From assembly GCA_001789205.1 (NCBI GenBank), contig MFYT01000034.1:1-11687 (forward strand): DNA of 11,687 bases, written 5' to 3'. Under the pieces are notes generated by a model. It had not been told where the DNA came from. It ran no database searches and saw only the letters and a program-made list of their open reading frames with translations. A program made the position numbers and the translations under genes. Each line of letters starts with the position of its first letter. Position 1 is the first letter of the stretch. Of this stretch, positions 307 to 9,907 are shown one piece after another. This stretch comes from Candidatus Raymondbacteria bacterium RIFOXYA2_FULL_49_16 (lineage in GTDB: Bacteria > Fibrobacterota > OXYB2-FULL-49-7 > XYB2-FULL-49-35).

Positions 307-388
307 GTTCAACAGCGCCAGCCCGTCATGCCGCATAGGGCACGACGCAAACTTGCCAGTTTGCTACGGCATGGGGCGGCCGTTGCGC
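307..388 (+). repeat. attC-like site 1
   Basis: Bounded by GTTCAAC (R'', 307-313) and GTTGCGC (R', 382-388). The single strand can fold into a long imperfect hairpin: CAAC 310-313 with GTTG 382-385, GCC 317-319 with GGC 378-380, GCCC 321-324 with GGGC 374-377, CATGCCG 327-333 with CGGCATG 367-373. The tip is a perfect 7-bp stem, GCAAACT (347-353) and AGTTTGC (358-364), around a TGCC loop. Length, imperfect symmetry and complementary ends fit attC sites, whose folded strand is used by integron integrases. Three related copies follow at cassette spacing. Confidence 0.75.
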
Positions 389-432
389 GAAATTGCTGGC
401 CGAATAAAACCAAATTCCCTTGAAAATACCTT

Positions 433-1209: not shown

Positions 1210-1291
1210 AACCAACAGCGCTAGCCCGTCACACCGCATAGGGGGCGACGCAAACTTGCCAGTTTGTTACGGCATGGGGCGGCCGTTGCGC
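1210..1291 (+). repeat. attC-like site 2
   Basis: The second copy closes the AbrB/PIN cassette. It has CAAC at 1213-1216 and GTTGCGC at 1285-1291. The terminal stem GCAAACT (1250-1256) and AGTTTGT (1261-1267) encloses TGCC, with one G-T pair replacing a G-C of site 1. The right half, including CGGCATGGGGCGGCCGTTG, is the same as in site 1. The predicted cassette boundary is G1285/T1286. Confidence 0.75.
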
Positions 1292-1349
1292 GAAATTGCC
1301 CCACCGTCTTTTAAATAAATAGTAACGCCCCCCCAAATTCTTAATCAAT

Positions 1350-2055: not shown

Positions 2056-2135
2056 GCGCAACAGCGCCAGCCCATCATGCCGCATAGGGCACGACGCGTG
2101 TTACCACACGCTACGGGCATGGCATACCGTTGTAG
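2056..2135 (+). repeat. attC-like site 3
   Basis: GCGCAAC (2056-2062) and GTTGTAG (2129-2135) bound the third copy. The terminal stem is GCGTGT (2096-2101) with ACACGC (2106-2111) around a TACC loop. This differs in sequence from the stems of sites 1 and 2 but keeps the pairing and nearly the same loop. It closes the VapC/Phd cassette at about G2129. Confidence 0.75.
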
Positions 2136-3392: not shown

Positions 3393-3471
3393 AGCTAACA
3401 GTATTATCCAGTCAACCGCATTTGGTCGACGCGTGTTACCACACGCTACGGGCGTGGCGCGGCCGTTGTTG
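3393..3471 (+). repeat. attC-like site 4
   Basis: AGCTAAC (3393-3399) and GTTGTTG (3465-3471) bound the most divergent copy. The terminal stem GCGTGT (3431-3436) and ACACGC (3441-3446) encloses TACC, as in site 3. CTACGGGC and GCGGCCGTTG are also kept. It begins only five bases after the brnA stop. The following cassette is the one broken up by introns and a transposase remnant. Confidence 0.7.
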
Positions 3472-3539
3472 CGGCTCATTGCCGCTTGTCAATATATAGA
3501 GAAGGGCGCAAGGATGCGCACAATCAATCCGGTGTTCCG

Positions 3540-4050
3540 TCACCGCGTGCTTACGGGGACATGGTTTCAGCGGTCCTGCCGTTGAGGGTATGAAGCTCCC
3601 CGGACACTGCGCCGTAGTTCCATGAGAAAGGAACGGGAAGCGAACCGCAAGGAACGCATCCTTCTGAGAGTTTCACAATCGGATAAGGCGTCCGCACCGT
3701 CTGTAATGGTCAACACATGTGAATGCGGTCAACTGTCGTCACGCGCAGGAGCGAAAGGAACTGACACGCTCGAACCAAAACGGTACCAGAGGCGAGGCCG
3801 CCGACTATCAACGGGAAACCGGCACGGACAAGAGAAAGGCCTCTCGGCAGACAACGCAGACCTTCCACAGACAAAGGATTGACAGGCTGGACAACGAGTA
3901 ACCCTGCGACTTTCGCCCTTACTCAAGGGCAAGCCGTCCGAAAGGTGGGCTGACGGAAGCGCGGGTGGAGAAGACGAAAGAAGCGAACGGGCTGTGTAGC
4001 GCAGTTCATAGGGATTGAGGGCCCTTGCCGGGCCTGACATCATCCTTTCC
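3540..4050 (+). ncRNA. Group II intron 5' ribozyme-like RNA region, no gene
   Basis: About 510 bases without a believable gene on either strand. It is rich in short stems and purine loops, for example GCCCTT-ACTC-AAGGGC (3915-3930) and GCCC/GGGC around 4019-4034, with many GAAA and GCGAA stretches. The style (GTGCTTACGGGG at 3547, 'GCGCCGTAG', 'AAACCGGCACGG') resembles domain I-III RNA of group II introns. It lies directly upstream of the inner intron's predicted 5' end. Open frames here, including a 104-codon one on the minus strand, show no protein-like features. I could not draw the full secondary structure by eye. Confidence 0.5.
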
Positions 4051-4567
4051 GTGAGGGTGCCCGCCTCTTTCCAGAGGCGAGGCAGGCTGACGTTCGTCTG
4101 GTGCTTCGTTGCGAGAGAATGTGAAGAACCGCTTGTAGGGAGGAAAGCAAATGAAGACTGTCCCCTGGACAGTTTATGCGCCTACCCGCCTGAAGCAACA
4201 CTGGACTCCGGACGGCATTGACAGATGAATCGCCGAGAACTTGTCGAAAGCGTAGGAATGTCGTCGAAACCAGGAGGGAGTCGTTGGCCTGGGACGAGTC
4301 TGGAGGAAACCTGTTTACTGTCCAGATGGCGACCGGCATGAAGGCGGCGTGAACTTGGCATAGGCTTGTGCGTGGAACGTGGGAACCTGTCGCACCGATG
4401 CAAAAGGAGCGGTTCAAGTGGAAGCCCCACAAGAATTTGAGTACTGATGCGGGGCACAGGGACAGACCGGAGCGTAGTAGCGAAGAGGCCTCTGTAATGG
4501 GGGTGGAGCGAAGGTCTCCGGGTCATTGATGCTTAAGAAATGGACCAACCAGTAATGGGAGGAGTCT

Positions 4568-5816
4568 TTGGAAGAAGCAAAACCGTTTGCGATATCCAAA
4601 CGGGCGGTGTGGAACGCATATAAGAAGGTGAGAGCCAATCACGGTGCAGCCGGGATTGATGAGGTATCGATTGAGGTGTTTGAGAAGGATATGAAAGACA
4701 ACCTTTACAAACTCTGGAATCGGATGGCTTCAGGCTCGTACTTTCCGCCAGCGGTAATGGCTGTGCCGATACCGAAGAAGAGCGGAGGTACGAGAGTCCT
4801 GGGAGTGCCGACAGTAGCTGACCGAGTTGCTCAGATGGTGGCGAAGGAGTTCTTAGAGCCGATAGTGGAAAAGCACTTTCATAAGGACTCTTACGGATAT
4901 CGTCCTGGCAAATCGGCGCATGAAGCACTCGCCGAAACGCGGAAGCGCTGTTGGCGCTATGATTGGGTGCTTGAATTCGACATACGGGGATTGTTCGACA
5001 ACATCGACCATGAACTACTGATGCGTGCGGTGCGGAAGCACACGGATAACCGATGGGTCATTCTCTACATAGAACGATGGCTTAAGGCGCCGATGCAGGC
5101 CGCGGGCGGTGAACTTGTCTCACGAGGAAAGGGAACTCCGCAAGGGGGGTGTTATCAGTCCTTTGCTGGCGAACCTGTTCCTGCACTATGTATTTGACGT
5201 GTGGATGGTGAGGCACAGTCCGCAAACGCCATGGGCGCGATACGCGGATGATGGTTTGGTGCATTGCCGGAGCAGGGAGGAAGCGGAGCAATTGCTGCAA
5301 CGCTTGAAAGAGCGTTTTAAGGTGTGCGGTCTTGAGCTTCATCCCGACAAGACGGGGTTTGCCTATTGTAAGGATGATGACCGACGGGAGGAACACCCGG
5401 AAATGTCGTTCGACTTTCTGAGTTATACCTTTCGGCCAAAAAGGGCGAGGAATTGGCGAGGAAAGTTTTTTGTCAGTTTTCTGCCTGCCATAAGCAATGA
5501 GGCTGCAAAAGCATTGCGCCGCGAAATCCATGATTGGCGTATGCACCTCAAGCCTGATAAGTCGATTGAGGACCTTTCTCGAATGTTCAACCCATGTATC
5601 CGGGGTTGGATTAACTACTATGGACGCTTTTACCAGTCACAGTTGTATGCGGTTCTACGCTACTTGAATAGAGCGCTTGTCCATTGGGTACGCAGGAAAT
5701 TTAAACGGTATGAAACCCATCGTCGAAATGCGGAACACTGGCTGGGCCGATTGGCGCAGCGTGAACCGCATTTGTTTGCGCACTGGCAGATGGGGATAGT
5801 ACCGACGGTTAAATGA
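4568..5816 (+). pseudogene. ltrA: Class-D group II intron reverse transcriptase/maturase, frameshifted
   Basis: The intron-encoded protein would be 415 residues, close to RmInt1's 419. It starts at TTG 4568 behind GGGAGGAG. Visible RT blocks: 'FPPAVMAVPIPKKSGGTRVLGVPT', 'SYGYRPGKSAHEAL', 'LEFDIRGLFDNIDH', 'KGTPQGG', 'YADD' (5241-5252), 'GLELHPDKT', 'FDFLSYTFRP'. The maturase domain 'FNPCIRGWINYYGRFY' follows, and the end 'LFAHWQMG' is typical of class D, which lacks an endonuclease domain. After KGTPQGG the frame breaks: CAA is followed by six Gs (5144-5149), where five would give ...QGGVISPLLANLFLH. As written the first frame ends at 5197 and the second is open from about 5109 to 5816. This is either a true inactivating +1 indel, a sequencing error in a homopolymer, or less likely slippage that rescues the protein. 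Confidence 0.88.
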
Positions 5817-5819
5817 TGG

Positions 5820-5892
5820 GAGCCGTATGAGCCGAGAGGTTCACGTCCGGTTCTGGGAGCAGCGAGGGGGGAGGTTCCTCTCGTTGACTCAC
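5820..5892 (+). ncRNA. Inner intron domains V and VI
   Basis: Domain V is the 34-base hairpin 5820-5853. The lower stem GAGCCG pairs with CGGTTC and holds the AGC triad. The upper stem TGAGCC pairs with GGTTCA around a GAGA tetraloop. Domain VI (about 5860-5886) pairs GCGAG with CTCGT. A5887 is a candidate branch-point adenosine a few bases before the 3' end. Domain V looks fully catalytic, so the RNA could still splice if maturase is supplied. Confidence 0.82.
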
Positions 5893-6585
5893 TTTGTCGT
5901 AGCCGGAAGGACCCGCGAAACACTCGAAAACCAGGCCCTGCCCGCCATACGGGCGTTTCTGATGAAACGGGGACTGTTATTGTTGGCGGAGAAGACACGC
6001 ATCGTCAACATACGCGAAGGATTTGAGTTTCTCGGGCAACACCTGAGAAAGTATGATAACGGCAAGCTTATCACCAAACCGGCATCGGGCTCCCTTCGAA
6101 AGATACAGGACGCGGTGACGGAAATACTCAAATCACATGACGCGGGTTCCGTGTATTCAATGATACGGCGGTTGAACCAGATACTACGGGGATACTGCAA
6201 TTACCACAGGAGCTCATGCGCGAGCAGAATGTTTGGGCGATTGGACAGTTGGATGTACGGCGCAATCCGGCAATGGCTCCATGGCCGTCACCCGAACAAG
6301 GGGCGGCGATGGATGCTGAGGAAATACTACCGGTCGCGGAATGGCTACCGGTGGATATTTCACGCCAAGCGTACGAATGAAAACGGGAGGACAGCGATCC
6401 TGGATTTGCAGCAGGCCAGCATGATAAGCATTATCCGGCACGTGAAAATACGGTCTGAGGCGAATCCGTATGATCCCGCCTGGACAGATTACTTTGCAGA
6501 TCGCAAGAGGAATAAGCGATATTGTAATCCGGACCGGCGCTTTATCGAGGAGTGTGGGCCGTCCCATGACAGGGATTGCCTTTGA
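5893..6585 (+). pseudogene. C-terminal fragment of a second group II intron reverse transcriptase (CL/B-like)
   Basis: The frame resumes at TTT 5893 with F-V-V-A-G-R-T-R-E-T-L-E, the residues that normally follow YADD in intron reverse transcriptases. It continues 'LLLLAEKTRIVNIREGFEFLGQHLRKY' (RT 6-7), the maturase part 'LNQILRGYCNYHRSSCASRMFGRLDSWMY' and 'RRHPNK'-like 'GRHPNKGRRWMLRKYYRS', then 'HVKIRSEANPYDPAWTDYF'. This family usually has a C-terminal HNH endonuclease; here the protein ends soon after YF (...FIEECGPSHDRDCL) with no Cys-x-x-Cys/HNH. The open frame extends upstream to 5827, but that part is domain V/VI RNA of the inner intron. The N-terminal half with the catalytic aspartates is missing. 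Confidence 0.85.
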
Positions 6586-6592
6586 AGTGCTT

Positions 6593-6626
6593 GAGCCGTA
6601 TGAGCAGAAACCATCATGTACGGTTC
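6593..6626 (+). ncRNA. Outer intron domain V
   Basis: GAGCCGTA (6593-6600) pairs with TACGGTTC (6619-6626), an exact 34-base domain V frame with the AGC triad. The upper part (TGAGCAGAAACCATCA) keeps only a few pairs, unlike the perfect upper stem of the inner intron, so this ribozyme is probably decayed. Confidence 0.72.
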
Positions 6627-6657
6627 TGAGGGCTATCTATTACCCACAAACATACGG

Positions 6658-6963
6658 TCATTTCACCGGCTGAGTCCATTTCTCGATAGCTTTTGATGAT
6701 TCACGTTTCCATTTTTCTATCTTGGTCCTCAGCTTCCGCATATTTTTAATTGCTTTTCTACAGAATCTTGCCTGTGCCTCAGACAGACATTTTGTGATCG
6801 TTTTTTTGTTTTCTTTCCTAGTCCATATATAATAAGGGCCATGCCAATTCTTTTTGTCGTCGGCACAACAGCAGCCTCTTTTACCGCACGGACCATACCT
6901 CTTCATGATCGTTCCTGTTAAGATATAGTCCAACCCTGCGATTTGATTCTTTTCTGTTTTCAC
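6658..6963 (-). CDS. DUF6788-like small cysteine-rich protein
   Basis: A 101-residue basic protein. The core 'RYGPCGKRGCCCADDKKNWHGPYYIWTRKENKKTITKCLSEAQ' fits the DUF6788 pattern (G-x-C-G-x-x-x-C-x-C ... H-G-P-Y-Y). A lysine/arginine-rich helical tail follows. Proteins like this are of unknown role and often lie beside transposase genes; the Cys cluster could bind a metal. Translation likely starts at GTG 6963 behind AGAGGG; an internal ATG at 6906 is possible. It is divergent from the transposase remnant at 7026, with a 15-base inverted repeat between them. The stop lies right against the end of the intron remains. Confidence 0.6.
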   Translation of the reverse strand: MKTEKNQIAGLDYILTGTIMKRYGPCGKRGCCCADDKKNWHGPYYIWTRKENKKTITKCLSEAQARFCRKAIKNMRKLRTKIEKWKRESSKAIEKWTQPVK

Positions 6964-7250: not shown

Positions 7251-7550
7251 ATGAATAAGATTGAATTTATCTGGGATGAAAAGAAAGCAGAATTAAATTA
7301 CAAGAAACATGGGGTCACCTTTAACGAAGCTGTGACGGTTTTTTATGATGAGTTCGCAACAGAATATTTTGATGAGGAGCATTCTGATGATGAAGACAGG
7401 TATTTGCTTCTTGGCATTAGTTCTCAGTTACGAACCCTTATCGTTTGCTATTGTTCACGAGAAAACAACAAGGTGATCCGAATCATATCGGCTCGAAAAG
7501 CAACAAAAAATGAATCAAAATACTATAGGAGGTTCCCAAATGAAAGATGA
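7251..7550 (+). CDS. brnT: BrnT toxin
   Basis: A complete 99-residue BrnT. It starts 'KIEFIWDEKKAELNYKKHGVTFNEAVTVF', the standard F-x-W-D-x-x-K-A-x-x-N-x-x-K-H-G-V-x-F motif. It goes on through 'DEEHSDDEDRYLLLGISS' and ends with 'VIRIISARKATKNESKYYRRF'. By family knowledge it is a RelE-fold ribonuclease that inhibits translation and is neutralised by BrnA. No ribosome binding site is seen, and the leader is very short, as for the HigB toxin. The antitoxin gene overlaps its end by 11 bases. It shares the family with the broken BrnT at 2911 but is clearly not a recent copy. Confidence 0.9.
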   Translation: MNKIEFIWDEKKAELNYKKHGVTFNEAVTVFYDEFATEYFDEEHSDDEDRYLLLGISSQLRTLIVCYCSRENNKVIRIISARKATKNESKYYRRFPNER

Positions 7551-7755: not shown

Positions 7756-7822
7756 AGAATTAAACGATCCAAAGAGTCGCCATTCCTGACGACGAAGCGC
7801 CATGAAAAGGTAAAGGCAGCGG

Positions 7823-7840
7823 GGCAACTCCGCGCAACAC
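7823..7840 (+). repeat. Truncated attC-like site 5 (left arm only)
   Basis: GGCAACTCCGCGCAACA (about 7823-7839) is identical to the start of attC-like site 3 (2047-2063), including R'' GCGCAAC. After that, nothing of the stem, loop or R' GTTG is found. The site is cut right after its first arm, so this cassette can no longer be excised precisely. Confidence 0.62.
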
Positions 7841-9203: not shown

Positions 9204-9291
9204 AGAAGAAAATTTATTTTCTATAAAGGTTTGCGGTGGATATGAATGGCGCTGAAGGTGAAAAATGTTTATTTTTAGCATAGAGGGAAAT

Positions 9292-9570
9292 ATGTCAAAG
9301 AAAGCATTGTTCAAAAGAATTTCAACCAGACTTAAGAATATGGGCGCAAACAAGGTTGGTATTTTCGGTTCATATGCCAGAGGAGAGGACAATAAAAAGA
9401 GCGACATTGATGTTCTTGTTCATTTTAAGAATAGAAAAAGCCTTCTTCAAATGGTGGAAATAGAACAGGCGCTTTCCGAGGAACTTGGCATAAAAGTCGA
9501 TCTTCTCACAGAACAAGCCATAAGCCCTTATTTGATCGATCGAATAAAGAAGGAAACAATACCAGTCTAG
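9292..9570 (+). CDS. mntA: MntA nucleotidyltransferase antitoxin
   Basis: Start ATG 9292 behind AGAGGGAAA gives 92 residues; an ATG at 9265 would add an unconvincing MFIFSIEGN. The minimal nucleotidyltransferase signature is complete: G26-S-Y-A-R-G and, ten residues on, D38-x-D40 (KSDIDVLV). In the HepT-MntA system this enzyme adds AMP to the HepT toxin near its active site and blocks it. The order here, mntA then hepT separated by seven bases, is common. An inverted repeat, AGAAAAT-TT-ATTTTCT (9207-9222), upstream may be an operator. No attC-like site is seen around it, so this pair appears to lie outside the array. Confidence 0.9.
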   Translation: MSKKALFKRISTRLKNMGANKVGIFGSYARGEDNKKSDIDVLVHFKNRKSLLQMVEIEQALSEELGIKVDLLTEQAISPYLIDRIKKETIPV

Positions 9571-9577
9571 AATCCCG

Positions 9578-9907
9578 ATGAAAAAAGACGATAGCGTTTA
9601 TATTCAGCATATGCTGGACGCCATTAAACGGGTTGAAGAATACATCGGCGGGACTGATAATTCAGGTTTCTGTGGCAATAAAATGCTACAAGCCGCCGTA
9701 TGCAGGGAGATTGAAATTATCGGCGAGGCATCAAAGCATCTTTCAAGGGGCTTTAAGGCGAAACACCCGGACATTCCCTGGAAGGCGATAGCCGGTATGC
9801 GGGACAAGCTGATTCATGATTATTTTGGCATTGACTACAATGCGGTTTGGGACACGGCGATCAAAGATATTCCGTTTTTACGATCATTGCTTTTAAAACC
9901 TGTCTAA
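9578..9907 (+). CDS. hepT: HepT (HEPN) ribonuclease toxin
   Basis: A 109-residue HEPN-domain protein. The catalytic R-x4-H-x-Y motif is seen as R75-D-K-L-I-H80-D-Y82-F. The upstream helices 'YIQHMLDAIKRVEEYI' and 'AAVCREIEIIGEASKHL' are typical of HepT. It is an RNase that dimerises and is AMPylated on the tyrosine of the motif by MntA. It lies seven bases after mntA and is surely co-transcribed. It ends 21 bases before the end of the convergent hexosaminidase gene; no clear terminator is seen in that gap. Confidence 0.92.
   Translation: MKKDDSVYIQHMLDAIKRVEEYIGGTDNSGFCGNKMLQAAVCREIEIIGEASKHLSRGFKAKHPDIPWKAIAGMRDKLIHDYFGIDYNAVWDTAIKDIPFLRSLLLKPV

Follow-up and report, generated by a model that had tools for sequence, protein, structure and literature searches.

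A decayed nest of two group II introns, one probably aimed at the reverse transcriptase codons of the other, in a toxin-antitoxin cassette array of Candidatus Raymondbacteria

Positions 3500-6640 of a cassette array in Candidatus Raymondbacteria bacterium RIFOXYA2_FULL_49_16 carry parts of two group II introns, and the locus raises the question of whether one intron lies inside the other and whether the pair could still act as a twintron, as a sequence-only reading of the letters had proposed. The window, that is, the whole stretch of DNA analysed, corresponded to the complete 11,687-bp contig C34 of a 5.43-Mb genome. We found that two different group II introns are nested in the array, the inner one being flanked on either side by sequence of the outer; the nested element itself thus stood, while its bounds had to be moved to about 3469-6649. 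Judged from its sequence, the locus appears to be a relic rather than a working twintron, because the inner intron is without its 5' splice site, the inner reverse transcriptase (RT) is frameshifted and the outer RT is without about 257 codons. We assign a probability of about 0.88 to the reading that it is what remains, in decayed form, of a two-step insertion followed by a deletion.

The array in which the introns lie is marked by four attC-like repeats, the last of which adjoins the outer intron:

310-390, forward strand: attC-like site 1, part of an 87-nt repeat with 93% identity to 1213-1299; bottom-strand fold z −2.28
1213-1293, forward strand: attC-like site 2, a repeat of site 1
2058-2135, forward strand: attC-like site 3, repeat; bottom-strand fold z −3.79
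3396-3468, forward strand: attC-like site 4, repeat, the 5' exon of the outer intron with terminal CCGTTG; CGTT(G) core before the same hairpin in seven relatives

Bottom-strand folding clearly exceeded that of shuffled sequences at sites 1 and 3 only, the folds of sites 2 and 4 not being significant by this comparison. The cassettes between the four repeats carry toxin-antitoxin genes (PIN toxins, a Gp49/HigB-like gene and a CopG antitoxin). No integron integrase (IntI) scored over the cut-off in the whole genome, and the best matches skipped model positions ~182-234; since these roughly 50 mid-model positions are missing from them as from ordinary tyrosine recombinases, the array is of the CALIN type and not an integron with intI. 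A BrnT-type toxin gene at 7251-7547 and an attC-like fragment, GGGGCAACTCCGCGCAAC, at 7800-7835 lie downstream of the introns, and from these the array seems to continue past them. Further on, at 9265-9907, a small nucleotidyltransferase-like gene is followed by a HepT-like gene, a pair that by eye resembles an MNT/HEPN toxin-antitoxin system.

The outer intron was delimited by alignment with its relatives and by searches of Rfam and protein models:

about 3469-6649, forward strand: whole outer group II intron, IIB/CL1-type, directly 3' of the attC-like site and in cassette orientation
3469-4222, forward strand: its 5' half, domains I-III and the start of IV; RF02012 at 3528-3690; 88% identity with L008, 66% with L038
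3809-3814, forward strand: candidate EBS1, CAACGG, complementary to the attC end CCGTTG
4151-4222, forward strand: first 24 codons of the outer RT (MKTVPWTVYAPTRLKQHWTPDGID), then cut; aligned with the RT starts of L037, L038 and L039
5894-6585, forward strand: C-terminal part of the outer RT, from just after YADD (FVVAGRTRE...) to the stop; PF08388
6593-6649, forward strand: outer domain V (6593-6626) and a shortened domain VI, 3' end about 6649; RF00029

The 5' domain RF02012 scored 58.5 bits (gathering 34), and both domains V noted earlier were recovered by the covariance search, RF00029 matching at 5818-5893 (50.8 bits) and again at 6591-6726 (36.4 bits). The second score falls under the gathering threshold of 40 because the outer domain VI is shortened; the two domain V copies are 78% identical across 41 nt. 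In agreement with the earlier reading, the C-terminal half of the outer RT directly follows the inner domains V/VI, the ORF at 5827-6585 carrying a group II maturase domain (PF08388, 5.6e-22) and matching TIGR04416 only from model position 216 onward, that is, after YADD. This part is 52-53% identical to the RTs of L038 and L039, two complete outer-type relatives of the same phylum with intact RTs. L008, on contig C39 of the same genome, is a ~1-kb ORF-less copy with 88% identity over 3445-4190 and 94% over 6566-6650. As these three align both to 3469-4222 and to 5894/6566-6649, on either side of the inner intron, the sequence at 5893-6640 is not an unrelated neighbouring intron. Contig C11 of the same genome holds a further 3' fragment matching 6383-6649; there (L009, 2380-2860) the fragment continues in frame from the beginning of another gene (MSQARVVVSKTEDQRFYEVKVPYNINQ...), forming a chimeric ORF.

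Outer-type relatives occupy the same attC-adjoining position elsewhere in the genome and phylum. One boundary is common to eight copies (window, L008, L010, L037, L038, L039, L131 and L133): after a CGTT(G) core, which resembled attC in the cases examined, come a TTGCGG-like start and a hairpin with covarying arms (GCGGC/GCCGC, GCGGTC/GACCGC, CGCGGC/GCCGCG and CGCGAC/GTCGCG). The window's outer intron begins TTGCGGC and its hairpin lies at 3471-3485; we infer the exact first base from this common boundary and from one published case, discussed below. A start at GTGCG (L008 3115, equivalent to window 3503) was rejected because this arm of a stem-loop differs from relative to relative (GTGCG, GGGCG, GTACA, AGCAC, AGCGA), whereas the attC-TTGCGG boundary is common. 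The likely outer EBS1 is the loop CTATCAACGG, found in the window, L008, L038 and L039 alike; it could base-pair with the attC end CCGTTG, a pairing that brings no covariation, as its target is invariant. In all three own-genome outer copies (window 6627-6649, L008 and L009) domain VI is reduced to GGGCTATCTATTACCC, a form that differs from that of relatives in other genomes.

Group IIC-attC introns (S.ma.I2 type) also reside at attC sites, but they use the bottom strand, lie opposite to the cassettes and encode a class C RT. The outer intron was excluded from this class, since it has the same orientation as the cassettes and the RT of its relative L038 is nearer to 6me0, which we take to be the Thermosynechococcus elongatus TeI4h RT (2.5e-156), than to GsI-IIC (2e-35) or LtrA (3e-36). 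This best-match comparison of the L038 RT supports a CL1 assignment of the outer intron. Its position directly after attC, its cassette orientation and its TTGCG start are those of UHB.I2, a IIB/CL1 intron with an unusual 5'-UUGCG boundary directly after an attC, in cassette orientation and among toxin-antitoxin cassettes (PMC7923331). Unlike the window's introns, UHB.I2 is single, not nested, comes from a metagenome and has an intact ORF (PMC7923331).

The inner intron occupies the following positions:

4223-5893, forward strand: inner class D-like intron without its first ~200 nt, 3' end at 5893; relatives align from 4226
4279-4284, forward strand: inner EBS1, AGTCGT, matching YADD codons (ACGACT)
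4568-5816, forward strand: inner RT/maturase, frameshifted at the G6 run 5144-5149 into two overlapping ORFs
5820-5893, forward strand: inner domains V and VI, branch A at 5887

We call this intron class D-like because its rhizobial relatives (L105 and others) appear similar to RmInt1-type introns. The RT/maturase is split by a sixth G in the run into ORFs 4568-5197 and 5109-5816, which match TIGR04416 1-185 and 181-352, respectively. While the 3' end is exact, the intron starts abruptly within domain I: alignment of its closest relatives with the window begins only at 4226, and their introns start with GTGCGCCACGAAGGC, 195-202 nt further upstream, indicating that the window's copy is 5'-truncated and that one of the two inner splice sites, the 5' one, is absent. 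An inner 5' end near 4050, as the sequence-only reading had it, was discarded, since the 88% match to L008 runs on to 4190 and L008 also has the palindrome that the window carries at 4060-4085. This palindrome may have misled that reading. The palindrome, CCCGCCTCTTTCCAGAGGCGAGGCAG, is dispersed and REP-like, lying inside the outer intron in the window and in L008 (about 2523-2548) and, on a third contig (L011, 2060-2085), near similar GC-rich hairpins.

One scan of 84,980 species' genomes yielded 80 loci with related introns; domain V was searched per locus with strict patterns, so that 3' flanks were read for part of the relatives. In 20 of the 84 related copies, spread over several phyla, the 5' exon ended in TAY GCN GAY GAY N, that is, in the codons for YADD plus one base. 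When the readable flanks were joined, a continuous RT frame resulted in nearly all of them (RYADD|WVILCRT, RYADD|FVILVGS, RYADD|CNVYVKS and RYADD|FKIMCST, as well as RYADD|FVIL and RYADD|CNIYV), and the targets mostly resemble group II intron RTs, so that the earlier statement that bacterial twintrons are known from few genomes understates their number. Two targets are of the inner intron's own type (the second copy of L052, and L073). L052, from Desulfosporosinus metallidurans, has tandem class D copies at 2501 and 3739, of which the second apparently lies in the YADD codons of the first copy's class D RT, a case of self-nesting. Two IMG/VR contigs classed as viral (L143 and L144) show YADD and a class D intron start in a non-typical RT (ELPQGTPLSPILTNW...YTRYADD). 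At L060 and L066 the same lineage sits at chance YADD codons in genes unlike RTs, the former resembling a phage terminase; because these genes encode YADD without looking like RTs, they point to an address that would be read by DNA pairing and not through the protein. An RT fragment on contig C107 (L041) was rejected as a further break at YADD, as there is no class D sequence there and the fragment starts later.

To locate the pairing element, we aligned domain I from 56 relatives whose 5' exon could be read, and paired each candidate EBS1, in the column corresponding to window 4279-4284, with its own last six exon bases. Of 336 positions, 303 paired, whereas 2000 reshuffles averaged 165 and never exceeded 200; this covariation identifies the column as EBS1, and the window's AGTCGT is of the YADD type, as in most YADD-sited relatives. 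In a tree of the N-terminal part of the RT, the window fell inside a set of 24 rows (support 95/80) that included 15 of the 20 YADD-sited rows, all 20 lying within one half of the tree, while six other members of the clade have non-YADD sites. Site type clustered on the tree, with 8 changes against 18.8 when shuffled (0 of 200 shuffles). The window's inner RT has a long branch (0.57), so its exact place is unsure.

At the window's own junction, the 3' exon starts at 5894 with TTGTCGTAGCC, read as (T)TT GTC GTA or F-V-V(A), the residues just past YADD; the outer RT family continues from this F-V-V, leaving the 3' side of the target intact. The 5' exon, with its expected end TAYGCNGAYGAYN, was lost in the deletion. 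The putative insertion site therefore rests on the 3' junction and on the relatives, the 5' side (outer YADD plus GTGCGCC) being missing, and a pattern of YADD plus GTGYGCCACGA gave 0 matches in 294 genomes of the same phylum and beyond.

Two losses are directly visible in the alignments. The inner intron is 195-202 nt short, and the outer RT, measured against that of L038, lacks about 772 nt (257 codons) extending up to YADD. In the nested layout the two lost stretches are neighbours, and since they touch in a complete twintron, one deletion of ~1 kb is enough to account for both. The boundaries and relatives suggest the following history. The outer intron would have spread by homing to attC ends, and the class D-like intron by homing to YADD codons. 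With its EBS1 AGTCGT complementary to GAY GAY N, the latter would have entered the outer RT gene by retrohoming at its YADD codons, between the first and second base of the next codon, and the resulting twintron would have silenced the outer RT unless spliced. A single deletion of ~1 kb would then have taken away the outer RT from codon 25 to YADD as well as the initial ~200 nt of the inner intron with the 5' splice site, and splicing would have been lost; a one-base change in the G-run would have frameshifted the inner RT. The order of these events is that which the layout suggests.

Copies truncated at the 5' end are a known product of abortive retrohoming, and the abrupt start of the inner intron within domain I, together with its exact 3' end, would also fit an arrival in truncated form, in which reverse transcription stopped ~200 nt short and repair to outer codon 24 cost ~770 nt of the target. 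Incomplete reverse transcription has been proposed for two 5'-truncated integron-associated introns (PMC7923331). We nevertheless consider this course rather unlikely at our locus, as it needs a truncation and a large target deletion together, where a later single deletion in a complete twintron is one step. Also unlikely, and slightly more so, is continued splicing of the whole outer intron, from the attC to 6649, as a single unit that carries the class D remnant in domain IV: outer domains I-III, V and a basal VI with the branch A region are present, and trans mobilisation of ORF-less or ORF-interrupted copies is possible in T. elongatus (PMC2882425), but the outer RT is destroyed, the only complete related RT in the genome (on C1) is divergent, with about 36% identity in the C-terminal part, and each of the three own-genome copies has a shortened domain VI.

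That the assembly collapsed or joined two unrelated intron copies is a concern with a contig of just 11.7 kb, with group II introns being repeats and with a case judged from the assembly alone. We hold such an artefact to be highly improbable, given that the missing parts occur nowhere else in the assembly, where the own-genome outer copies are just 88-94% identical and class D is represented by one copy, and that the 3' junction falls at the lineage's conserved site. In particular, a search for an N-terminal half of an outer-type RT in the rest of the assembly gave none, and this speaks against a simple misjoin. Least credible is an arrangement of two introns side by side; each has its own domain V, but outer sequence flanks the inner intron on both sides, and the RT frame breaks exactly at YADD. 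The decayed two-step insertion thus remained our preferred reading.

Bacterial twintrons are already known (PMC2882425, PMC4649490). In T. elongatus (TeI4/TeI3) the inner introns are ORF-less, close kin of the outer ones and placed between two start codons (PMC2882425). The window resembles them in having an intron lodged at a conserved position within another intron's ORF, with a mobile element serving as a safe site (PMC2882425), and in an outer intron of CL1/IIB type, but its inner intron is of another class, had its own RT, targeted YADD and is truncated. The Trichodesmium erythraeum twintron interrupts a protein-coding gene, and its splicing in vivo is sequential (PMC4649490), whereas the window's is decayed. 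In Methanosarcina acetivorans, site-specific homing into related group II intron ORFs produces nested arrays, according to the account of Dai and Zimmerly (2003) cited in PMC4424553; these introns are archaeal and the window's bacterial, yet they may use the same address, and the outer 5' model RF02012 also matches in M. acetivorans. In the literature searched, which covered few subscription papers, we found no description of a bacterial class D lineage addressed to YADD codons, which is weak evidence that this lineage was previously undescribed; the window is a decayed example of it in a new setting. The locus also supports the IIB/CL1 type that follows attC in cassette orientation, of which the literature searched describes one complete case so far.

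Hardly any protein motif of reverse transcriptases is more conserved than YADD; an intron pairing with its codons would therefore always find a target where RT-bearing elements live. We think it probable that a bacterial class D lineage with an RT active-site codon address can parasitise RT-bearing elements generally, its targets being group II introns of several classes, its own kin, other RTs and occasionally non-RT genes sharing the codons, and that the window preserves the fossil trace of one such attack, made on an integron-associated intron. If this is true, each YADD insertion would interrupt the enzyme of a competitor, and the lineage would provide a simple rule for where bacterial twintrons form.
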